Part shown: in pieces, positions 7,649 to 20,303 of the stretch | Layout: every line of letters starts with the position of its first letter | Position numbering within the stretch: position 1 is the first letter of the stretch | Notes under the pieces: generated by a model | Told to the model about the DNA's origin: nothing | What the model saw: the letters and a program-made list of their open reading frames with translations, nothing else | The model's database searches: none | Assembly (NCBI RefSeq): GCF_003386285.1 | Contig: NZ_QPNC01000008.1 | Coordinates: forward strand, 62,001-126,000 | DNA: 64,000 nucleotides | Reading direction: 5' to 3' | From: Nocardiopsis sp. FIRDI 009 | GTDB lineage: Bacteria; Actinomycetota; Actinomycetes; Streptosporangiales; Streptosporangiaceae | Translations under genes and position numbers: made by a program

Positions 7649-8128
7649 TCAACGCCCAGGAACTCTTCTAAAAACCACCCGACACGCCGAAGCGGCGGCC
7701 GCTCGACTGGGGGATGTTTCTTGAAGAAAACCACTCACCGCAGAATATTCGATCGCATCCAGATCCCAATCGAATGCGTCATCAATTCTTGAAACAAGGG
7801 CTTGCAGGTCGGAGACACTAGCATCTTCAAGCCGAGAGAATACTCCATAATCAACATCTAGATAAAACCATCGAAAGCCATCACCAAAAGAAATAAGAGA
7901 CACCGTTCGATAACATCGCCACTCCCTTTTTTTAAAGTAAGCATAAAGGTAAGCCGAAGATGTATCAGGCAGTCGATCAACGAATGCTACTCTACCCCGA
8001 GGCCCCTTTCCTCTGGGCCAGGCACTCCGACACAACTCCAAAAAAAGCCCTTTGGGTGCTGTCTTTACGTTTCCCAAGATGGGCTCGCCGGTTACAATCT
8101 CAGGGAAAAATCCCCATTCATCTCGCAT
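7649..8128 (-). CDS. probable immunity protein of orphan toxin cassette
   Basis: 159 residues, not recognised by family. The sequence is markedly richer in A+T than the genome around it. It has aromatic-rich segments (Y-L-Y-A-Y-F-K-K-R-E-W and F-R-W-F-Y-L-D-V-D-Y) and an acidic D-D-A-F-D-W-D-L-D-A. No signal peptide or membrane segment is seen, so it is cytoplasmic. Its ATG overlaps the stop of the toxin-like frame upstream as TGATG, giving translational coupling. That arrangement, with the same coupling at the main RHS locus, is the basis for the immunity call. The target would be the product tip at 8128-8414. Confidence 0.6.
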   Translation of the reverse strand: MRDEWGFFPEIVTGEPILGNVKTAPKGLFLELCRSAWPRGKGPRGRVAFVDRLPDTSSAYLYAYFKKREWRCYRTVSLISFGDGFRWFYLDVDYGVFSRLEDASVSDLQALVSRIDDAFDWDLDAIEYSAVSGFLQETSPSRAAAASACRVVFRRVPGR

Positions 8129-8414
8129 CAGAAGTAGTTAATCTTGATCGGAGTGTCCCATTGAATCAATCCGTCGCCCCGCTTCGCCCTAATCATCAGC
8201 TGGTAGCTCCGGTGATTTCCATTTTCAATTACACCCCTTTCCCCGCGATCGAGATCGACTGCAATTCCAAGTGGGTCTCTGTCTCTGTTTCTCTCGTGAT
8301 GGTTGACTATCTGAAGGAGCTTATCGTCCGATATATTTCTCACCTCTTCCATTTTTCCTTCTTCAACTGGGTTTCCGAATGTATATCTCCTCAAGTCTGA
8401 AACTGTCGAATTAA
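8128..8414 (-). pseudogene. orphan polymorphic-toxin C-terminal tip, 5' cut by IS
   Basis: The frame is open from the IS edge at 8414 to TGA at 8128-8130, about 95 codons. A TTG at 8394 could start an 88-residue product, but the frame continues upstream to the IS junction. This argues for truncation rather than a short gene. The recognisable part, I-S-D-D-K-L-L-Q-I-V-N then I-E-N-G-N-H-R-S-Y-Q-L-M-I-R-A and D-T-P-I-K-I, follows the pattern of ParB-like toxin tips found at RHS C-termini (G-x-H-R, then helix, then D-T-x-I). Low GC and tandem placement behind the complete RHS locus suit a displaced toxin cassette. Activity of the truncated form is unknown. Confidence 0.6.
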
Positions 8415-9274
8415 GAGCTCATCTCAAAAGTCCTGCGAGGCGACTCTGAGCCTGGCATGATCATGTGCTGTGAGCGATGTGTTGCCCGACGGGCTCTGGG
8501 AGATCGTCCAGCCCCTGCTGCCCCCACCACCGAAGACCGGCCGCCCCCGCGCGGACCAGAGAGCGGTGCTGACCACGGTGCTGTTCGTCCAGGCCTCGGG
8601 CTGCTCCTGGGAGAAGGCCGACGGCCTCTTCGGCGTCACCCGGGCCACCGCCCACCGCTGGTTCCAGACCTGGACCGAGACCGGCCTGTGGCCCCGCATC
8701 CACCAAGCAGTCCTGGACGAACTGGGCAGACGCGCCCTACTGGACTGGTCCCGCTCCACGGTCGACTCCCAGTCGATCCGCGCCAAGAGAGGGGGAGAAG
8801 ACAGGGCCAAACCCCACCGACCGGGGTAAACCCGGCTCCAAGCCCCACCTTGTGTGCGACAACCAGGGACTACCGTTGACCTGCGCGATCTCCGCGGCCA
8901 ACGTCAACGACGGTGAAGCACTCCAACCCCTGGCGCGGGGCATCCCCACGGTGCGCTCACGGCGAGGTCCCAGGAGGCGCCGCCCAGCCAAGCTTCACGG
9001 AGACAAGGACTACCACTCCCGTGACCGGCGCCGCTGGCTGCGCGAACGCGGGATCGGCGTGCGCCTCGCCCGGCCCGGCATCGAGTCCTCCCAGCGGCTG
9101 GGCCGCCACCGGTACAAGATCGAGCGCTCGATCGCCTGGCTGGGCTCCTACCGCAGGTTGAACGTGCGCTGGGAGCGCAAGGCCTCCAACTTCCTGGCCA
9201 TGCTCGGCATCGCCTGCATCCTCATCTGCTACAAGCACTTGGCCAAGCACACCGACGGCTTTTGAGATGAGCTC
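8415..9274 (+). mobile_element. IS5-family insertion sequence, 860 bp
   Basis: The ends are exact inverted repeats of 16 bp, GAGCTCATCTCAAAAG at 8415-8430 and its complement at 9259-9274. The A at 8414 and T at 9275 extend the match by one. It contains one transposase in two frames. No clear target duplication is seen (taa left, tca right). It separates the main toxin/immunity pair from the orphan cassette and interrupts the orphan's reading frame. Confidence 0.9.
8470..9265 (+). CDS. IS5-family transposase, two overlapping frames
   Basis: The first frame (GTG 8470 to TAA about 8829) has L-W-E-I-V-Q-P-L-L-P and the first catalytic Asp in S-T-V-D-S-Q-S. The second frame (about 8790 to 9265) has P-G-S-K-P-H-L-V-C-D, H-G-D-K-D-Y (second Asp) and R-Y-K-I-E-R-S-I-A-W-L (Glu), ending the DDE core. 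To join them the ribosome would have to shift +1 near 8793 (ggggagaagacaggg). Related IS5 elements use programmed frameshifting between two ORFs. A 2-base deletion would look the same, so the element may be active or newly dead. Confidence 0.8.
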
Positions 9275-9661
9275 TCAGTGAGATGAGCCCATAAAATCCT
9301 CTTCTATCTCATCCAGCTCTTCCTCGCTGGGAATCATGGGCGCCCAACCTGTGGATTCGGCATGACGAACAAAGCGATCAGGGAGTCGAACATTGTATTC
9401 ACGAACGTAGTAAGACAAATCAGAAGGCCACAGCCAGACCCCATCGGTGAGAACCGACAGAGAGCAGATCGCAGGGCATTTCTCATCCAGTACGTCAAAC
9501 AGCACCTGGGTCGATGCCGCGACAACCGAACCTCGGTCCAGATATTCCGCGATTTTCCCTTTCCGAGTTTCGTCGCCTTTCGACACATGAGACTTCAGAC
9601 TTTCCCCGCGATCATCACCGTGCGAAAGCTCCCGAAAGAAACCAATCTTCTCTACCCCCAT
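9275..9661 (-). CDS. immunity protein for the RHS toxin
   Basis: 128 residues. ATG at 9661 overlaps the RHS stop codon as TGATG, so the two are translationally coupled. This start is preferred over an upstream in-frame ATG at 9694 inside the RHS gene. The C-terminal half D-G-V-W-L-W-P-S-D-L-S-Y-Y-V and the acidic tail E-E-E-L-D-E-I-E-E-D-F match a recurring small immunity family placed after actinobacterial RHS genes (family number not recalled). No signal peptide is seen, so it protects from the cytoplasm. It is AT-richer than the RHS core, like other exchangeable tips. The IS5-family element begins immediately after its stop. Confidence 0.78.
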   Translation of the reverse strand: MGVEKIGFFRELSHGDDRGESLKSHVSKGDETRKGKIAEYLDRGSVVAASTQVLFDVLDEKCPAICSLSVLTDGVWLWPSDLSYYVREYNVRLPDRFVRHAESTGWAPMIPSEEELDEIEEDFMGSSH

Positions 9662-12600
9662 CAAGGCATCACCCCCGGACTGAACAATCTCCACAAATCA
9701 GGCGACAGACTCTTCTTGGCGCTGGTCGGACCAACGAAGAGAGTGCCATGACGACCTGCCCAAAGCGTATCCACAGGAGCCATGACATTGACTCCGAGCT
9801 TGTTCGCGAGATTCTGCGCGAACGAACCGTCGGGAGAACCGGTCGAGCAGGCGCACAAACGGATGTCACCTCCGGGATACGAAGGATCACGCATGAGCCT
9901 GTTCGCGAGCTCACGATGGCCGAACTGCCTGCCCATTGGGGCACTGGAAACGGAGTTCGGTGTCCCATGGATCACTACATCATGAAAACCTTCCATGGGC
10001 TTCGTCCTGGCATGGTTGGCAGCAAAGGGATCCCCCGGCTCCATGTAATTGGTCCGGGGATTGCAGTTGTGGTTGAGGAGGTCGAGCTCCCCCGCCGCCA
10101 CATGGTACGTGTGCAGGTCCGCGACCGTCAGGTTGTGGACCGTGGCGGGCTGGGTGGCGACCTCCACCGCGGAGACCTGCACCCACGTACCGGCCGAGGT
10201 CTGCAGCCACATCCCCGGCGCCAGGTCGATCGCCTCGACCCAGGCGTTCAGCTCCGGAACCCAGAACGGGTGCCCCTCGGTCGCGATCACCACCTCTCCG
10301 ACCGCCACCGGACCGGGAACCTCCGAGGCGCTGTCGGAACCGGCCGACTCGCCCTCGGGCGGCGCCTCGCGTTCGGTGGTCGGGTCCACGGTGATCTCGA
10401 CCAGTGTCTTGGCGCCCTGGCCGACGATCGTCGCCGCGACCGTCCGCGTCCCCTGCTCACCGGCCTCGGGGTCGGTGGCCAGCACCCGGTCGCCGACCTC
10501 GACCTCCTCGATCGGCTTGGTCGACCCGTCGGCCATCAGCACACCCGTACCGGGCGCGAAGCTGTTGCAGGTGCCACGCGCCCCCGAGGTGGCCGGGGTC
10601 GTACGCGGCGCCGACGTCGTCGGCGTCGTGCGCGGTGTGGTCCGCACCGGAGCGGGTGTACGCGGCTGCACCGGAGCACGGCCCGACGTCGCGGCCCCCG
10701 ACCGCGATCCCGCCCCACCGAACCAGGACGAGAACCGGCTCGCGACCGATCCGCCGAACCGCTGACCGGCCCACCGGGCCCCGGCACTGGCCGCGCTGCC
10801 CAGCGCGGCACCGGCCGCGCCGCCCACGGCGCCGCCGATGGCGCCGGTGACCACCGAGGTGGCCGCACCCGACCACGTCCAGTCGTTGCGCGGGGTGTCC
10901 AGCCCGTACTGGACCAGGCCGCCCACGGCGCCGCCCAGCGCGGCACAGCCGACCACTCCGGCTCCGCCAGTCAGGGCCGTGCAGCCCACGCCCACGGCCG
11001 TGCCCACACCCACCGAGATGATGGTGTTCTTGTTCCTGCTGGCCCAGTCCTTGGCGGAGTTGTAGCCGGACCGCACGGCGCTGCCGACCCTGCTGGCGCC
11101 GGACTTGACCTTGTCCCACGCCTTGCTCAGCCACAGACCCGTGGGGTCGGAGAAGGTCACCGGGCTGTTGTTGGCGTAGGCGTAGCCGTTGAGCTGCAGC
11201 GGGTCGGAGGTGTCCAGCACCGGGTCCGCGGACAGGAAGCGGCCCAACGCGGCGTCGTACTCGCGCGCGCCGACCAGGACCAGCCCGGTGGAGGTGTCCA
11301 GGGTCTTGCCGAGGAAGCGCTTGTCGTCGGGCCAGGCCCAACCATCTCCGCCGCGCTCCTCGCCGAAGGGCGTCATGTAGCGGCGGACCATCTGCTCGTT
11401 GTCGGCGTTCATGGACACCTGTCCGGTGCCCTGGTGGTCGGCGGCGAGCATGTGCACCTGGTCGGGGGTGCGCAGCGCCACGGTCCGACCGGCGTGCTCG
11501 TAGTAGCGGGTGGCCTTCACCTCTCCGGTGAACTTGTCCGAGCGCACCTCCATGCCCGGCAGGTACAGGACGTCCTCGTAGGGGGTGGAGCGCACCAGCC
11601 GGTCGCCCGAGGGGGTGTAGACGTAGGAGGTCTCGCCCACGTCGTTGGTGACCGTGTCCAGCCTGCCCTCGGCCGTCCAGTCCAGTTCCTGGCGTTCCCC
11701 GGCGATGTCGCGGACGGTGGTGTTGCCCGAGGCGTCGTAGTCGAAGGTCGCCAGGGTGTCGCCCTGGGCCGTCCGTTCCACGACCTCGCGCAGGGTGTTG
11801 GGCTGGGGCCCCTCCCCCTGCGGGTAGGTGTAGTCGCGGGTGACGTCACCGCCGTTGCCGGTGGTGTCGTGCCGGACCTCGCTGATCCGGTTGCCCGCCG
11901 CGTCGTAGGTGTAGGAGTGCCAGTAGGCGCCGGGACCGCCCACTGACTGGGCGGTGGGCTCGGCGTCGCACCCGGTCGGGTCGCCCTGCGGTAGCGTCCA
12001 CGCCTCGGTGAGCTGGAGCAGCCCGTCGTAGGTGAAGCACTGGGTCTCCTGCTGACCGCCGTTGGGCGCGTCGGTGATGGCGACGACGTTGCCGGAGGCG
12101 TCGTAGTGGTACCCGGTGTCCAGCAGGGGCGCCGCAGCACCCTGGCGGTCGACGCGGGTGCCGATCAGGCGCTGGGTGCCCTTCTCATAGCTGTTGGTGA
12201 TCCACGCCTTGGGGCCGGTGCCCGGGTTCAGCTCGATCTGGAGGGGCAGTCCGGCCTGGGTGTAGTCGGTCCGGGTGACGTAGGAGCCGGCCCCGTCCAA
12301 CGTGGTGGGGCGGAGCAGGTCGTCGTAGCCGATGGTCAGTGACTCGGCGGGCAGGCCGCCGGCGGCGGGCATGCCCGTCCCCTGGACGGTGCCGTCGGGG
12401 TTGTAGCTGACGGAGAACTCGTAGTCGCCCGCGAGGTCTCCCTGTGAGGCGGGGATGCCGTAGAGGATGTTGGTGGGCCGGTACAGCTCGTCCTGCCCGA
12501 CGAGGCCGATACGGAAGTCGCCCTGGTCGGTGTGCCGGGTCTGGATGAACAGCTCGCCCTTGTACTTGGTGTCGTACTGGTACGAGGTGAGCTTGGTGCC

Positions 12601-15600
12601 CTGCTCCGGCTCGCCCTCCCAGCTCTCCACCATGCGGCCGAGGTCGTCGTAGACGTAGGAGACGGTCCGGCCGTCGGCGTCCGTGGTCGAGACGAGTTGG
12701 TCGAGGTGGTCGTAGGTGCTGGTGGTGGTGCCGGTGTCGGGGCTGTGCACCGCCACTCGGCGCCCCTTGTGGTCGTACTCGTAGCGCCACTCGTCGCCGG
12801 CCGGGGTGGTCATCGTGGAGAGCTGACCACCGGGGGTGTAGGAGTAGGTGGTGGAGACGTGGTCGCCCTCGGGGGCGTCCCCGGTGTACTGGCGCTGTTC
12901 CACCCGTTGGCCACGGGCGTCCCGGATGACGGTGACCGGCACGCCCCCTTCCGGCGGGGTGACGTGGACGCGGTCGCCCTCGTGGACGGCGGTGGTCCGC
13001 CACTTCTCCTCACCCGCGACGCGACGGATGGTGGCCACGGGCCGTTCGGCGCCGTCGTAGGTGTAGACGGTCTGGCCCTGGACGTCGCCGTCACGGACGA
13101 CGAGCAGGCCGGGAGCGGGAGCCCCGGTGGCGTAGTAGGGGTCGTTGGTCTTGGCGACCTCACCGATGCCGTTGTAGAAGGTGTCGGTGACCAGGCGGCC
13201 GCCGTCCGGCCCGGGCGCCTGGGTCTGCCGCGTGCGCAGGAAGCCGTCGAGGATCTCGTAGGAGGTCGCGTAGGAGCCGTCGTTGCGGATGCTGTGGGTG
13301 GCGACCGAGACGGGTGCGTCCTCGGCGATGGTGTAGTCGTACTTGACGTTGGGGGTCATCCCCTGGCTCTTGGGCCGGTTCGGCAGCCAGACGGCGGTGA
13401 CCCTGCCCAGGGGGTCGTGGCCGATGTCGGTGCGTCGGCCGTTGGCGTCCACCTCGGCGTGGACCGAGCCCCGCGCCGGGTCGATGTGGGTGACCTGGGT
13501 GTGGTCCAGGGCGTTGGTGGCGGTGACCTCGGTGACCAGACCGTGGGTGTAGGTGTGGTCGGTGGTCTGGGTGACCAGGCCCTCGGCGTCGGTGATCTGG
13601 GTGACCTGGCCGTACTCGTCGTAGGAGAAGCCCTTGACGGTGCTGTAGACGGGGTCGCCGTCGGCGTCGCGGCCGTCGAACTCCTCCATGACGGTGATGT
13701 CGCCCCGGGTGGGCGCGTCGCCGTAGCCGCCGCCGTCGTAGTGGCGGCGCACGTCGGAGATCAGGTCGTCGGGTCCGGACTCCCGCGAGCAGGCGACCGC
13801 GACGCTCTCCACCCGTGCGATGAGCGTGTAGATGTGCGCGTCGGCGTTGTCGGCGTAGGTGGTGCGCGTGCACGTGTCGTCGTCGGGTGTGGAGGTGTCC
13901 CCGCGGTCCTCGACGCGTTCGGCGCGCCCGGTGTCGGTGTCGAAGGCGGTGACGCGTTCGGTCTCCATCCACGACCCGTCCGACAGCGCGGTGTAGCCGC
14001 GTTCGGTGTCGGTGGCGGTGTAGGCCGCGTGGTCGGTGCCCCAGTCCTCGGTGCGGGTGGCGGTGACGTGCCGCCAGGGCTCGGAGATCGACTTGGTGAC
14101 GACGTCCTCGCCGTCGTAGGTGATCGTCTCCAGCTCGTGCCCGGCGAGCTCGTCGTGGTCGGTGTACTCGGTGCCGGTGGAGTCGGTCACCGTCACCGAG
14201 GCGGTGCCTCCGCCGGGTTCCTCCCCGCCGTCCAGTCCGCGCAGGTAGGTGTGGTCCGTGCGGGTGGGCATGGTCTGGCCGTCGCCGGTGCGTACCCGGA
14301 CGGTCTCGTAGCCCCGCCACTGGTTCCAGGTCTGGTACTCGTCCTCGGTGATGCCGTCGGGTTCGGTGTGGCGCCACCCCGCGTCGCCGACGTACTCGTA
14401 CCGGGTGTACTGGTCGGGCGCCTTGCCGGTGAGGTCGGACTCGATGACCTCTTCGACCACGTACTTGTGGAACCAGTCGGTGATCGGGTCCTCGGCACCC
14501 GGCGGGTTCCACTTGACCGGGTAGCAGCGCCCGGTCTGCTCACCCTCCGCGGGCAGGTCGTCGTGCGAGCACGTTCCGCCCGCGTAGTTGACGTCGATCT
14601 GTCCGCCGGTCTCGGTGAAGATCCTGGACAGGCGGAACCGGACCAACGGCTGGATGTTGTCGTCGGGGTCGTCGACCCGGTTGGGCAGTTGCTGACCGTC
14701 GAGTTGGACCGGCGGCAGGGCCTGCTGTTCGTCCCCGTCGTGCCCGGTGCGGGTGATCTCCGACAGCCACAGGGTGCGCGAACCGTCGCCGTTGTCGGTG
14801 AACAGGTGGGTCAGTTCCCAGGAGTCGACGGTCTGGTATCCGTCGTCGGTCCTGTACTGGGTGCGGACCTGTTCCAGACGCTTGCGGGTCCAGAAGGAGG
14901 GCGAGGTCTGGGTCCAACCGCAGTCGGTGCCCTCCTCACAGGCCAGGTCGTAGGGGACGTCCGGCCAGTGCCGGGCGTTGTCCTCGGTCAGCTTGTCGGC
15001 GGCGCAGTCGAAGTCGTCGTCGGGCAGGCAGCGTTCGGTGGTGTCGAAGACGACGCGTGCCGGGGCGTCGCCGTCGTAGACCTCGCCCGCGCGCTGTCCG
15101 TAGTCGATGCGGGTGAGGTAGCCGCCGCGGGTGTAGGCGGTGCCGTTGGTGTCGGTCTCGCCGTTGAGGGCGTAGTGGTTGGTCTCCTTGGCGTAGAAGT
15201 AGGTCATCACGTTGCCGTGGGCGTCCTCGACGTAGTCGAGGTTCCAGCGCCAGCCCTGCTGGCACCAGGAGTCGGCGAACGTGGAGTCGTGGCAGGGTTC
15301 ACCGGCGTCGTCGCCGAAGACGGGGACGGTCCAGACCGAGTCGGTGGTCTCGTCGCCGCTGCCGTAGCCGGGCAGGCGGTTGCGGCCGAAGTAGTAGCGG
15401 GTGCCGTCGGTGGTGGTGACCCGCCAGTACTCGCCGTCGTCGTCGCCGTTCTCGGCTCCGGTGAGGCGTTCGATCCTGGAGTTGTCGTCCGACTCCAGTC
15501 GCCACTGGCCGGTGTCGTCGTCCTTGATCAGCTTCCCCGAGGTGCCGTTGAGCATCAGGGTGGCGTTCTCGGTGGCCCAGCACTGGTCGCCCTTGGCGTC

Positions 15601-16668
15601 GTGGCCGTCGTCGGTGCAGGCCTTGTAGGCGCGTTCGATGTAGCCGGGCTCGTAGGAGAAGCCCTCACCGATCCAGGAGCCCTGGTTGTTGGTGGCGCTG
15701 GTGCGCCCGTCCACGGACTGGGAGGAGTAGTCGAGCGACAGTTTCGGCTGGAGGCTGGAGGGGACCGGCACCGACTCCAGCGGGTAGGACCAGGTGAAGG
15801 CGCCCGAGGAGGTGGACACCGTCCATGTGGAGGAGGGTTGGAGGGCGGTGGCCCCGTAGTCACCGCCGGAGGAGGAGGTGGACGCGGCCAGGGCGAAGAC
15901 GCCCGTGGACACGGTCACCGGTTCGGCGGGCGGGGCGGCCGGGACGCCTGGGGCGCGGGCCTCGTCCGCCTCCGGGCCGTCTCCCCGCTGCGGGGTGAGC
16001 GTGGCGGCCACCGTGTCGGGGCTGTCGGTGGTGACCGGGGACAACTCCAGCGGCGTGTGGCACTCGGGTTCCGCCGGTGTGGTGAGGAAACAGTCCGGCA
16101 TGGGCCACAGGGCCAGCCGGTTCCCGTAGGAACCGCCGAAGGCGTCGGCGAAGTCCGAGGGGTCCACGTGCACTTCCGCGCCCTCGGGCGCGGTCACTCG
16201 CAGTGCGAGCCCGTGGGCGCCCGCTCTGGCTGCGGGTTCGGCTCCCACCACCTCGACCTCCGCGGTGCCCTCGGCCCCTTCGGCGACGACCTGCACCGGC
16301 AGACCGCCGACCGTCGTCATGCCGTCGCGCCCGGCGGTGTCACCGATCGGGACGGTGGCGCTGTCCTGGGAGGGCCAGGACGCCCGGGGTTCTCCTCCGG
16401 CGGCGTCGGCCAGTTCCTCGCCCATCTCGCGGGGTTCGACCTCACCGGTGGCGCCGGTGACGGGGTCGGCCAGTTCCTGGGTGTCGGGGACGGAGTCGTC
16501 GCCCATCCAGTCGGGCAGCCGGGGCAGGACCACAGCGAGCGTGACGGTCACCACCACCGACATGAGGGCGGCGGTGGTGGCGAGCACGCCCTTGCGCAGC
16601 CGTGTCCTGGTGGCTTTGGGCTGGTCCGCCTCGTCGGTGGGGGCGTCGGTGTCGCGGTGCGGGGGCAT
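9661..16668 (-). CDS. RHS/YD-repeat polymorphic toxin with Hint domain
   Basis: 2335 residues from ATG 16668, six bases after the LamG gene; an overlapping GTG at 16677 is an alternative. A basic N-terminus leads into one membrane segment (about 27-49). A SpvB-like start (S-L-D-Y-S-S-Q-S) and many YD repeats follow (Y-D-x-x-G-R, Y-T-Y-D-A-A-G-N). The RHS-associated core ends with A-R-E-Y-D-A-A-L-G-R-F-L-S-A-D-P and N-N-S-P-V-T-F. A glycine-rich hydrophobic stretch precedes a Hint domain (about 2034-2202, from C-N-S-F-A-P-G-T-G to L-L-N-H-N-C). The last 133 residues are the toxin tip, with V-I-H-G (His about 2234) and R-L-C-A-C-S-T-G (Cys about 2274). The tip's H-G and A-C motifs recall clan CD (caspase-like) peptidases; that is inference. 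The Hint domain should release the tip by autocleavage. Confidence 0.9.
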   Translation of the reverse strand: MPPHRDTDAPTDEADQPKATRTRLRKGVLATTAALMSVVVTVTLAVVLPRLPDWMGDDSVPDTQELADPVTGATGEVEPREMGEELADAAGGEPRASWPSQDSATVPIGDTAGRDGMTTVGGLPVQVVAEGAEGTAEVEVVGAEPAARAGAHGLALRVTAPEGAEVHVDPSDFADAFGGSYGNRLALWPMPDCFLTTPAEPECHTPLELSPVTTDSPDTVAATLTPQRGDGPEADEARAPGVPAAPPAEPVTVSTGVFALAASTSSSGGDYGATALQPSSTWTVSTSSGAFTWSYPLESVPVPSSLQPKLSLDYSSQSVDGRTSATNNQGSWIGEGFSYEPGYIERAYKACTDDGHDAKGDQCWATENATLMLNGTSGKLIKDDDTGQWRLESDDNSRIERLTGAENGDDDGEYWRVTTTDGTRYYFGRNRLPGYGSGDETTDSVWTVPVFGDDAGEPCHDSTFADSWCQQGWRWNLDYVEDAHGNVMTYFYAKETNHYALNGETDTNGTAYTRGGYLTRIDYGQRAGEVYDGDAPARVVFDTTERCLPDDDFDCAADKLTEDNARHWPDVPYDLACEEGTDCGWTQTSPSFWTRKRLEQVRTQYRTDDGYQTVDSWELTHLFTDNGDGSRTLWLSEITRTGHDGDEQQALPPVQLDGQQLPNRVDDPDDNIQPLVRFRLSRIFTETGGQIDVNYAGGTCSHDDLPAEGEQTGRCYPVKWNPPGAEDPITDWFHKYVVEEVIESDLTGKAPDQYTRYEYVGDAGWRHTEPDGITEDEYQTWNQWRGYETVRVRTGDGQTMPTRTDHTYLRGLDGGEEPGGGTASVTVTDSTGTEYTDHDELAGHELETITYDGEDVVTKSISEPWRHVTATRTEDWGTDHAAYTATDTERGYTALSDGSWMETERVTAFDTDTGRAERVEDRGDTSTPDDDTCTRTTYADNADAHIYTLIARVESVAVACSRESGPDDLISDVRRHYDGGGYGDAPTRGDITVMEEFDGRDADGDPVYSTVKGFSYDEYGQVTQITDAEGLVTQTTDHTYTHGLVTEVTATNALDHTQVTHIDPARGSVHAEVDANGRRTDIGHDPLGRVTAVWLPNRPKSQGMTPNVKYDYTIAEDAPVSVATHSIRNDGSYATSYEILDGFLRTRQTQAPGPDGGRLVTDTFYNGIGEVAKTNDPYYATGAPAPGLLVVRDGDVQGQTVYTYDGAERPVATIRRVAGEEKWRTTAVHEGDRVHVTPPEGGVPVTVIRDARGQRVEQRQYTGDAPEGDHVSTTYSYTPGGQLSTMTTPAGDEWRYEYDHKGRRVAVHSPDTGTTTSTYDHLDQLVSTTDADGRTVSYVYDDLGRMVESWEGEPEQGTKLTSYQYDTKYKGELFIQTRHTDQGDFRIGLVGQDELYRPTNILYGIPASQGDLAGDYEFSVSYNPDGTVQGTGMPAAGGLPAESLTIGYDDLLRPTTLDGAGSYVTRTDYTQAGLPLQIELNPGTGPKAWITNSYEKGTQRLIGTRVDRQGAAAPLLDTGYHYDASGNVVAITDAPNGGQQETQCFTYDGLLQLTEAWTLPQGDPTGCDAEPTAQSVGGPGAYWHSYTYDAAGNRISEVRHDTTGNGGDVTRDYTYPQGEGPQPNTLREVVERTAQGDTLATFDYDASGNTTVRDIAGERQELDWTAEGRLDTVTNDVGETSYVYTPSGDRLVRSTPYEDVLYLPGMEVRSDKFTGEVKATRYYEHAGRTVALRTPDQVHMLAADHQGTGQVSMNADNEQMVRRYMTPFGEERGGDGWAWPDDKRFLGKTLDTSTGLVLVGAREYDAALGRFLSADPVLDTSDPLQLNGYAYANNSPVTFSDPTGLWLSKAWDKVKSGASRVGSAVRSGYNSAKDWASRNKNTIISVGVGTAVGVGCTALTGGAGVVGCAALGGAVGGLVQYGLDTPRNDWTWSGAATSVVTGAIGGAVGGAAGAALGSAASAGARWAGQRFGGSVASRFSSWFGGAGSRSGAATSGRAPVQPRTPAPVRTTPRTTPTTSAPRTTPATSGARGTCNSFAPGTGVLMADGSTKPIEEVEVGDRVLATDPEAGEQGTRTVAATIVGQGAKTLVEITVDPTTEREAPPEGESAGSDSASEVPGPVAVGEVVIATEGHPFWVPELNAWVEAIDLAPGMWLQTSAGTWVQVSAVEVATQPATVHNLTVADLHTYHVAAGELDLLNHNCNPRTNYMEPGDPFAANHARTKPMEGFHDVVIHGTPNSVSSAPMGRQFGHRELANRLMRDPSYPGGDIRLCACSTGSPDGSFAQNLANKLGVNVMAPVDTLWAGRHGTLFVGPTSAKKSLSPDLWRLFSPGVMP

Positions 16669-16673
16669 GCCGA

Positions 16674-19600
16674 TCACAGCTCCGGGTTCTCGGTGGTCCG
16701 GCTGAGGGCGGAGATGAGGGTCTCGTCGGCGGCTCCGGCGTAGACGCGGACGTCGTCGACCGCGCCGGAGAAGTACTGGCGCCACGAGTAGGAGTCGGCC
16801 TTGGCCCGGCCGACGTTGAGCAGGACCCACGGGGCGTTCGGGTCCTCGGCCAGGTCCTGCGGGGTGGGCCACAGCGGGTGGAAGCCGCGGGTGACGGCGT
16901 GCGTGCCGTTCACGTAGAAGCGCACCTCCTGGGCGAAGGCGTCGAAGACCAGCAGGAGGTGGTCGCCCCGGTTCTCGTGGCTCGGGGCGACGTCGGACGC
17001 CTCGAGCACGGTGGGGTCGGCTTCGGGTGTGTCCGCGTCGGACAGGACGGCCTCCCACCGTCCGCTCGCGGCGTTGTACCGGAGGTCGATGAGGGTGTTG
17101 TAGGCGGTCTGGGAGAGGACCGTCATCGACTCCTCGGGGGCGGCCGCCGCCAGGCGGGCCCGGGCGCTGATGGTGAAACTGCCTGCCAGGGGCGCGTCCA
17201 TGAAGGCGCCCGCCGAGTCGCCGTCACCGTCGAGCCGTAGGTGACCCTGGCCCATCAGGGCGCTGTCGCCTCCCCAGGGGTCGGACTCGTGGATGGCCGC
17301 GTCTCCGTTGAGGACCATCGGGTCCCGACCGTCGGCCTCGGGGCTGGTGCCGTCCACGGCCGCGTTGAACGGCCAGTAGGACCGTCGGTCGACCGGGAGC
17401 ATCCGGAGCCGGTCGAACTCGTATCCGCTGACGATGCGGTCGAAGACACGCACGTCGGCCACGGCGCCGCGCAGGAAACGGTCGTAGCCGCTGCGGGTGG
17501 TCGAGCGGCCGATCTGGAGTGCACCGGGGGCGGACCAGACGGTTTCGCGCTCGACGGTTCCCTCCGGGGAGCCGTTGACGTAGAAGCGGACGGTGTCGGT
17601 GTGGCTGTCGTGGGCGAAGGCCAGGTGCGCCCACTGGCCCTCGGTGACCGTCGCCTCCGCGGAGATCCCCCACCCGCCGAGGGCGTCCATGTCCGCGTCG
17701 GGGAAGGCGACACGCCATGCCTGGTCGGAGGCGTCGTAGCCGAGGGTGAACCCGGGCTCGCCGGTGCCGTCCTGGGAGACGACCACCTGGTCGCGGCTCA
17801 GGTCGTCCAGGCGGACCCAGGCCGAGACCGAGAACAGGCCGGTGGTGTCGACCAGCCGCGCGTCGGGGGTGAGGTAGGCCCCCTCCGTACCGTCCAGGGC
17901 GGCGGCGCGGCTGCCGTCTCCGCCGGGTCCCTCCTCCCCGAAGGTGACCCCGGCACCGGCGACGGCGGTGCGACCGCCCTCGGCCGCGTCGGCGGCGCCG
18001 TCGGAACCCGCGTCGTCGCCCATGCTCCACTGGCCGACCGCGGGCCTGCCTCCGTCGACGAGGAACAGGTGGTTGGCCCGGCTGCTGACCTTGCCCGCCC
18101 GGTCGACCGCCTCGACGTAGAGGCTGTGCGGCCCCTCGTGCCACGGGCTCCAGGTGAGGGTCGCCGTACCGTCGGCGTCGGCGGGCAGCGTGTTGGCGGC
18201 GGAGGGGTCCTCGTTGACGCCGTAGCGGTATTCGACCACGTCGTCGGAGGGCGAGGAGAAGGTGAAGTCGCCGTAGACGCCCACGCCGTCGTGCCAGGCG
18301 TCGTCGGCGGGGAAGTCGTCCGAGGTGATCTCGGGTTCGCCGGGGGCGGTGGAGTCGTAGACGAACTCGCATCGGGTCTGCGCGCCCGTCCAGCTCCACG
18401 GTCCCCAGGCGTGTCCGTCGGAGGCACGCACGATCCACCCGACGGTGGTGTTCTCCGGGATGTCGTCGGGCACCTGGTAGTGGAAGAAGGAGCCGGACGC
18501 CTTCTCCGAGGTGGTGTGGGTGCGCTCCTGTTCCTCGCCGTTCTGGTCGGTCCAGAACACACGGAACTGGGCCTTGAGCTTCTCGGTGGAGGAGCTGAAC
18601 TCGTCACCGTCGGACAGGTACGCCGTCAGGCGCGGCGGCTGGTCGACGTAGGGGCGGTCGGTCCCGTAGACGCAGGCGCCTCCCGGAGACATCCCCATCC
18701 AGGACTGGTCGGGGATGTCGGGCACCGTGTTGTAGCGCACCTCGAGTTGGGCGTTGTCGCAGAAGCGCTTCCACTGGACGGCGGTGGACTCGTCACCCGC
18801 GCGCAGGCCGAAGGACGTGGAGGAGTAGCCGTTGTCGGCGGCCCTGCCGACCGCTTCGGAAACGTCGAAGCGCACGTTCTGGTTGGTGGGGGTGCAGGAG
18901 GCCGTCGGGTCGGAGGGGCTCCTGGTGTCCTGCCGTTTGGACCAGGAGGGCTGGTTGTTCCAGGTGGTGGAGCTGTTGAACCCGCCGGTGCGGTAGGCGC
19001 GCACGGGGTAGGCGGTGGAGTTGTAGGTGTGGCGCAGCGTCACCGCCAGTTCGGCGGACAGGATCTGCTTGTCGGCGTAGGCGCCGGTGGGGATGCGGTA
19101 GAAGAGCCGCTTGACGCCCGTGCCGTTGCAGTGGAAGGGGTCGCCGTACAACTGCGGGCAGCGGCCGACGCCCTCGTGGTCGTTGCCGGAGAACTTCCAG
19201 TAGGAGGTCCCCGGATAGCCGGAGGAGACCATGGCCCAGGCCGAGAGGGTGGAGGTCTTCCACACGGGGTCGATGTAGATCGGGTAGGCGGTGTCCTCGG
19301 CGGAGGCCATCTCCTGGTCCGGGCGCAGGACGATGTCGCCGTCCTCGACGTCGGTGCTCACGGTGGCGACCCGGGAGGACTCCAGCGGTCCGTCCTCGGG
19401 CCGAGCGCCCTCAGGCTCGGCGGTTCCCTCCGGTTCCTCGGCTGCGAGGGGGGCGATCCGGGACGATTCCGTCGGCCCCTCCTCGGTCTGGGAGCCCTCC
19501 GGACCGGCGGCTCCGTCCGAGCTCTGACCGGCCTCCCCCTGGTCACCGGAGTCCCACATCAGCGGCTCGGGGGCCTCGAACACGTTCCCCCCGGCCCCGG

Positions 19601-20303
19601 TGTCCACCGCGGCCAGTCCCCGCTCCGCGACGGTGATCTCCAGACCGGTGGCCTCGGTGGCCAGTCGCAGCTCGGCCAGTTCGGGGCTGGCCGCCGCCTC
19701 GGGTGTGTGCACGACCAGAACGTGGGAGAAGCCGTCGACATCGGCCCGTACCACCAGGTCCACGTCGGGCAGGACCGAGGTGTAGCGGGCACGGGGACCG
19801 TCGAGTTCGGGTTCGGGGAGGGCGGTGGGCCAGTCGACGGACAGCTCCTTCCCGGCCCGGGTGAGGGTGGCCAGTGGCCCCTCACCGCCCGGGGAGATGC
19901 TCAGCCCGACCGTTGAGGCCCGGGGGGTGATGGTGCCGTCGTCGTGGCGGACGAGGGTGGGGTCCGGATCGACCCACGCTCCTTCGCTCAGCACGCGGAC
20001 CGGGTTGAGGTGCTCGACGGCGGTGAAGCTGCCGTCCGGTTGGGCGTAGACGGTCCGGCGCTCCTGGCGCAGGTCGGTGACCTCGACCCGCTCCCCCGAC
20101 CCGGCCGCCTGGCGCAGGGCCTCGGCCTCGGTCGCCGCGGTCGGTCCATCCTCGGCGTACGCCGCACCGTCGCCGGAGGGGGTACCGGTGACCGGCAGCG
20201 CGACGGCCAGGGCGGTGACCAGAGCGGTGGCCGAGAGGGCGGCCGCGGTGCGGCGCAGCAGGGCACGGACACGCGCGTGTTCGGGAGCGCCGTGGGTGTG
20301 CAC
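16674..20303 (-). CDS. secreted LamG-domain protein upstream of RHS toxin
   Basis: 1209 residues from a GTG with AAGGA upstream. An N-terminal signal peptide (R-R-T-A-A-A-L-S then a hydrophobic run, cleaved near A-Y-A-E-D) is followed by a beta-rich region, a low-complexity acidic linker and a DNRLRE-like or TIGR-type coat segment with F-D-V-S-E-A-V. Two LamG/concanavalin-like domains occupy roughly 750-950 and the C-terminal 230 residues; both have V-R-F-Y-V-N-G and D-V-R-V-F/Y endings. Actinobacterial RHS genes often follow such a protein, which probably helps display or export the toxin. It ends six bases before the RHS ATG, so the two genes are almost certainly co-transcribed. Confidence 0.85.
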   Translation of the reverse strand: MHTHGAPEHARVRALLRRTAAALSATALVTALAVALPVTGTPSGDGAAYAEDGPTAATEAEALRQAAGSGERVEVTDLRQERRTVYAQPDGSFTAVEHLNPVRVLSEGAWVDPDPTLVRHDDGTITPRASTVGLSISPGGEGPLATLTRAGKELSVDWPTALPEPELDGPRARYTSVLPDVDLVVRADVDGFSHVLVVHTPEAAASPELAELRLATEATGLEITVAERGLAAVDTGAGGNVFEAPEPLMWDSGDQGEAGQSSDGAAGPEGSQTEEGPTESSRIAPLAAEEPEGTAEPEGARPEDGPLESSRVATVSTDVEDGDIVLRPDQEMASAEDTAYPIYIDPVWKTSTLSAWAMVSSGYPGTSYWKFSGNDHEGVGRCPQLYGDPFHCNGTGVKRLFYRIPTGAYADKQILSAELAVTLRHTYNSTAYPVRAYRTGGFNSSTTWNNQPSWSKRQDTRSPSDPTASCTPTNQNVRFDVSEAVGRAADNGYSSTSFGLRAGDESTAVQWKRFCDNAQLEVRYNTVPDIPDQSWMGMSPGGACVYGTDRPYVDQPPRLTAYLSDGDEFSSSTEKLKAQFRVFWTDQNGEEQERTHTTSEKASGSFFHYQVPDDIPENTTVGWIVRASDGHAWGPWSWTGAQTRCEFVYDSTAPGEPEITSDDFPADDAWHDGVGVYGDFTFSSPSDDVVEYRYGVNEDPSAANTLPADADGTATLTWSPWHEGPHSLYVEAVDRAGKVSSRANHLFLVDGGRPAVGQWSMGDDAGSDGAADAAEGGRTAVAGAGVTFGEEGPGGDGSRAAALDGTEGAYLTPDARLVDTTGLFSVSAWVRLDDLSRDQVVVSQDGTGEPGFTLGYDASDQAWRVAFPDADMDALGGWGISAEATVTEGQWAHLAFAHDSHTDTVRFYVNGSPEGTVERETVWSAPGALQIGRSTTRSGYDRFLRGAVADVRVFDRIVSGYEFDRLRMLPVDRRSYWPFNAAVDGTSPEADGRDPMVLNGDAAIHESDPWGGDSALMGQGHLRLDGDGDSAGAFMDAPLAGSFTISARARLAAAAPEESMTVLSQTAYNTLIDLRYNAASGRWEAVLSDADTPEADPTVLEASDVAPSHENRGDHLLLVFDAFAQEVRFYVNGTHAVTRGFHPLWPTPQDLAEDPNAPWVLLNVGRAKADSYSWRQYFSGAVDDVRVYAGAADETLISALSRTTENPEL

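Follow-up and report, generated by a model that had tools for sequence, protein, structure and literature searches.

A candidate clan CD cysteine peptidase tip with a co-travelling immunity gene in an RHS toxin of Nocardiopsis

What does the C-terminal tip of a large RHS protein of the soil bacterium Nocardiopsis sp. FIRDI 009 attack? Most well-known RHS tips act on nucleic acids or nucleotides. In the 64,000-nucleotide stretch of contig NZ_QPNC01000008.1 analyzed here (the window, to which all coordinates refer unless another contig is named), an RHS polymorphic toxin gene on the minus strand (9661..16668) encodes a protein of 2335 amino acids, whose tip a sequence-only reading had likened to clan CD peptidases on account of a His-Gly and an Ala-Cys mark. 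Our preferred answer, with a probability of roughly 0.74, is an actinomycete RHS toxin carrying a compact clan CD cysteine peptidase, similar to caspases and to the cysteine protease domain (CPD) of MARTX toxins, as its tip, together with an overlapping immunity gene. Computation established the architecture of the toxin, its predicted fold, the conservation of the dyad residues, the exchange of the cassette and the co-travel of the immunity gene; together these suggest peptidase activity and toxicity of the tip.

The RHS reading frame extends from an ATG at 16668 to a stop codon at 9661-9663. Its product comprises, in this order, a hydrophobic N-terminal segment (judged by eye), RHS repeats, an RHS core, a Hint domain and the tip, with Pfam matches to RHS_repeat and PT-HINT and NCBIfam matches to YD repeats and Rhs_assc_core. 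The Hint domain (PT-HINT; 10066..10569, minus strand) spans residues CNSFAPGTG to LLNHN and, by what we take to be common Hint chemistry, is predicted to cut before Cys2202. The tip with its predicted caspase-like (clan CD) fold occupies 9664..10065 on the same strand (Cys2202 to Pro2335); the 133 residues that were modeled directly follow LLNHNC and end the protein, with no sequence beyond. Its predicted catalytic His2234 (VIHG; codon 9967..9969, minus strand) and Cys2274 (LCACSTG; codon 9847..9849, minus strand) are spaced by 40 residues. Re-reading of frame, domains and residues thus reproduced the RHS-Hint-tip protein, coordinates and motifs that had been described earlier.

Modeling of the tip gave a confident structure, whose best solved matches in Foldseek searches are clan CD cysteine peptidases, with the CPDs of MARTX and TcdA/TcdB on top. 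The conserved His-Gly and Cys each directly follow a strand in the predicted model. A caspase-like alpha/beta fold of clan CD is supported by this model, in line with the earlier clan CD assignment, which the near-invariant His and Cys also support; the structure prediction that had been recommended as a check returned clan CD cysteine peptidases rather than a non-peptidase fold as top matches. A scan of 20 tips produced matches of single members to DUF7320, RNaseT2L_C, gag-asp_proteas and DUF4347 at E-values of 0.005-0.095, and none to peptidase family C80.

The motif itself required comparison with chance expectation. In its bare form, HG followed by [AGS]C 30-55 residues on, it appeared in 3531 of 100,000 shuffles of the tip and is therefore weak evidence; it is also present in one of 22 other, unrelated RHS tips (29 other RHS loci minus seven lacking a Hint end, with two identical tips and one cut off by the locus end among the 22). 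With the bare form in 3.5% of shuffles, the HG and AC motifs might be accidental and the tip an ordinary nuclease or deaminase fold, yet the confident model headed by clan CD matches and a conservation reaching down to about 30% identity among tip relatives make this very improbable. A fuller motif (two hydrophobic residues, HG, then [AGS]C-x-[TS]-G) was found in only 6 of 100,000 shuffles. A profile built from 20 tips gave 53 matches in the loci examined, 20 of them from the alignment used to build it; merging of eight duplicates left 45 distinct sequences, and setting aside eight without a letter at His or Cys left 37. The window tip counted, Cys is present in 37/37 and His in 36/37 of these, both together in 36. 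The set-aside rows are fragments, degenerate copies or sequences weakly aligned at His, and one of them, L012, has by eye a Cys at the expected His position. As His and Cys are kept in relatives, the doubt that the motif arose by chance is removed. The residues first read as His-Gly and Ala-Cys marks of clan CD are near-invariant, and among the 37 sequences complete at both positions a loss of either is limited to one stop-bearing sequence.

This near-invariance makes thiol catalysis likely. It likewise bears on the idea of a clan CD-fold toxin with a chemistry other than plain proteolysis, such as a transpeptidase or a target-binding blocker. Clan CD does include ligases, and asparaginyl ligases are among the structural matches of a tip that is small (133 amino acids) and has no known activating site; a pure binder, though, would not need the His and Cys, and we consider such a toxin unlikely.

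Matches to the RHS core were present in 77 of 120 genomes, a count that includes the genome of the window, and 30 loci among the matches listed, one being the window itself, were compared. The five closest of the other 29 loci (77.6-84.8% core identity; among the matches listed) all carry unrelated tips, and tip alignment scores do not exceed 45 in any of the 29, versus 734 for the window tip itself. In Nocardiopsis sinuspersici (L022), the DNA match to the RHS gene stops at window position 10060, beside the Hint end, and counterparts of the window tip and immunity gene (9357-10100, 72% identity) lie downstream, behind another tip. The RHS match in a further genome (G003) stops at 10091, with a decayed piece of the cassette downstream. 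A second contig of the window's own genome (C41, 9229-9697; L125) holds a tip remnant and an open immunity relative, 88% identical over 472 nucleotides to window 9274-9745. Such displacement and swapping of tips are usual marks of polymorphic toxin exchange, and by sequence comparison the tip and immunity gene form an exchangeable warhead cassette.

The immunity gene (9275..9661, minus strand; 128 amino acids) overlaps the stop codon of the tip with its start in TGATG. Its association with the tip was followed at 22 loci from a genome scan and nine hand-chosen loci, a subset of all tip loci. With the window protein as query, a relative was found within about 200 nucleotides downstream on the same strand at 19 of the 22 (absent in L040, L041 and L043) and at seven of the nine, where the weakest match has an E-value of 4e-5 and the misses are the E. 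coli RHS tip (L021) and L057. At L040 and L041, a small protein with CxxC pairs stands in place of the usual relative and possibly represents another immunity family. Among 198 related genomes, 12 contain the tip, 18 an immunity relative and 11 both (P = 1e-12 if genomes were independent, which related genomes are not); tips were counted with a single-sequence query and immunity relatives with a profile, both genome sets being taken as the same 198. The immunity protein model is confident (predicted local distance difference test score, pLDDT, 94.1) and has no match among solved structures; the most conserved stretch is TDGxWxWPxDLxYYV. At E-values up to 10, PF04634, which we take to be DUF600/Imm36, has three matches elsewhere in the genome and none to the immunity gene. 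Imm57 is not among the matches listed for the 128-residue protein (E up to 1) or for 12 members (E up to 0.1), in a library whose Imm57 content is unchecked. Co-travel with the tip supports the 128-residue protein as its partner of immunity type, and the TGATG-coupled immunity gene of the earlier description thereby holds. With RHS repeats and core, a variable tip on a constant chassis and a gene of immunity type directly downstream, the locus has the features by which RHS polymorphic toxins are recognized, as judged from sequence.

Taken together, these features point to the following likely scheme. The hydrophobic N-terminal segment would export the RHS protein, whose shell would carry the tip; the Hint domain would cut at HN/Cys2202 and free the tip, which might then enter a competing bacterium, where its His2234-Cys2274 dyad would cut an essential protein. 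In the producer and its kin, the 128-residue protein would bind and block the tip. Alternatively, the tip could be a releasing, self-processing peptidase that cuts the RHS protein, the real toxin being elsewhere or lost. Zhang et al. 2012 (PMC3482391) assign this role to the majority of caspase-like domains in polymorphic toxins, and related domains are found inside giant WXG100-type proteins, one of which has ADP-ribosyltransferase domains. Nothing follows the tip of the Nocardiopsis protein, however, and a Hint domain already occupies the releasing position; moreover, the tip is the part that varies between orthologues, and the immunity gene co-travels with it across phyla. We regard a releasing role as quite unlikely.

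Several observations nevertheless weigh against a toxic clan CD peptidase. Foldseek matches reach an E-value of no better than 9.8e-4, with modest TM-scores of 0.55-0.58 when normalized by query length (six MARTX rows). The tip has no credible match in Pfam, NCBIfam or PDB sequences and none to a clan CD family model, and the C80 model PF11713 finds no match in the whole genome at E-values up to 10. The exception to His conservation, L004 (the same place as L033, in genome G102), carries Tyr at the His position, and two TAA stops interrupt its match; L043 is without both the His part and an immunity relative. His and Cys are both retained in the tips of L040 and L041, which have another gene downstream. 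In some actinomycetes, the tip domain is internal to giant proteins that continue beyond it, and the start of two of these is WXG100-like; in giant WXG100-type proteins it may be a releasing peptidase rather than a warhead. Finally, Tce1 of Pseudomonas aeruginosa, the nearest solved secreted effector, is non-toxic in E. coli and yeast, and Tce2 is toxic only in yeast, according to those parts of PMC13323088 that describe them.

How widely is the cassette distributed? In the wider phylum tip relatives are uncommon (6/396 genomes); Firmicutes and Proteobacteria were surveyed thinly. RHS-Hint proteins of Saccharothrix end in the tip, and reading by eye indicates the same for Streptomyces (L028) and Lentzea (L027). 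The carrier in Limnobaculum is a CdiA-type haemagglutinin with VENN, that in Rhizobium a haemagglutinin, and those in Lachnospiraceae are small open reading frames (ORFs). Small tip ORFs of about 160-190 amino acids, where unbroken, were seen in Lachnospiraceae and other Firmicutes (L029-L032, L034, L036, L038, L039, L041); they share a start like MGAGxHGGFGxTxG, perhaps a tag for export or docking. In one WXG100-type protein of 3297 residues (L050, in G076), the tip domain occurs internally in two copies, one of which has, by eye, Asn at both the His and Cys positions; the protein also contains ADP-ribosyltransferase domains and, below cut-off, a RelA/SpoT-like domain. In E. coli, a cousin tip (L021) follows an RHS core fragment, matches the profile at an E-value of 5e-14 and keeps H and C; 3422 of 5426 E. 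coli genomes hold at least 80% of its 1-kb region, a measure of region coverage and not of tip intactness. One genome record names the cousin's gene DUF8616, and this name was not found in the literature searched. We lean slightly toward a new antibacterial clan CD peptidase toxin family with a dedicated inhibitor of PDB-unmatched fold; the family would spread as a single cassette among carriers of RHS, CdiA and small-ORF type in Actinobacteria, Firmicutes and Proteobacteria, and the majority of E. coli genomes would hold a cousin of it.

Upstream of the RHS gene, a gene for 1209 amino acids (16674..20303, minus strand) with two Laminin_G_3 stretches, CBM96 and Big_13 (below cut-off) stops 5 nucleotides ahead of the RHS start and is probably its operon partner. 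On the other side, an insertion element (8414..9275, no strand assigned) with perfect 17-bp terminal inverted repeats is inserted where the immunity gene has its stop codon and seems not to have shortened the gene; the C41 copy matches the window up to the insertion point (from 9274) and has the same protein end. Beyond the element lies a second TGATG-coupled pair on the minus strand, an 88-residue frame (8128-8394) followed by a 159-residue gene (7649-8128), which resembles an orphan tip that has been truncated, followed by its own immunity gene; NCBIfam gives no match for either product, and the 159-residue protein matches no Pfam family.

Among known systems, the MARTX and TcdA/TcdB CPDs (peptidase family C80) are the best structural matches of the tip. 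These CPDs lie inside their proteins and measure about 200-250 amino acids in solved chains; the Nocardiopsis tip has 133, ends its protein, is accompanied by an immunity gene and has no Pfam C80 match. The idea of a caspase-like toxin is not new, because Zhang et al. 2012 (PMC3482391) describe Tox-Caspase. In the sections of that survey devoted to them, caspase-like domains of polymorphic toxins are mostly releasing peptidases and sometimes C-terminal likely toxins, so that the design called uncommon by the sequence-only reading is less unheard of than supposed. Tox-Caspase resembles the tip in its caspase-like fold with H and C, its occurrence in RHS-repeat polymorphic toxins and in Actinobacteria, and, in its C-terminal form, its place in the protein. 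The immunity partners named there include Imm36 (also DUF600) and Imm57, whereas the 128-residue partner has no PF04634 match; that survey records which partners were observed and does not make them obligatory. Tce1 and Tce2 have a TcdB-like fold but, according to PMC13323088, neither lies near an immunity gene, which sets them apart from the tip, and neither markedly affects the growth of E. coli. Cpe1 (PMC12136450) is likewise a cysteine protease used against bacteria, as proposed for the tip; it is papain-like (so called in PMC13323088) and not clan CD, and targets GyrB and ParE. No antibacterial toxin of clan CD paired with an immunity protein turned up in the literature searched, where subscription journals and preprints are sparse. 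If our reading is true, a clan CD protease with its own immunity protein, directed against bacteria, would be a different kind of weapon, and it would become possible to answer which protein of a bacterium is cleaved and by what means a 128-residue protein blocks a caspase-like enzyme. The E. coli orphan tip shares H and C with the window tip and has the Sel1-repeat gene yibG as its next gene instead of a member of this immunity family; this cousin makes part of the question testable in a laboratory strain.
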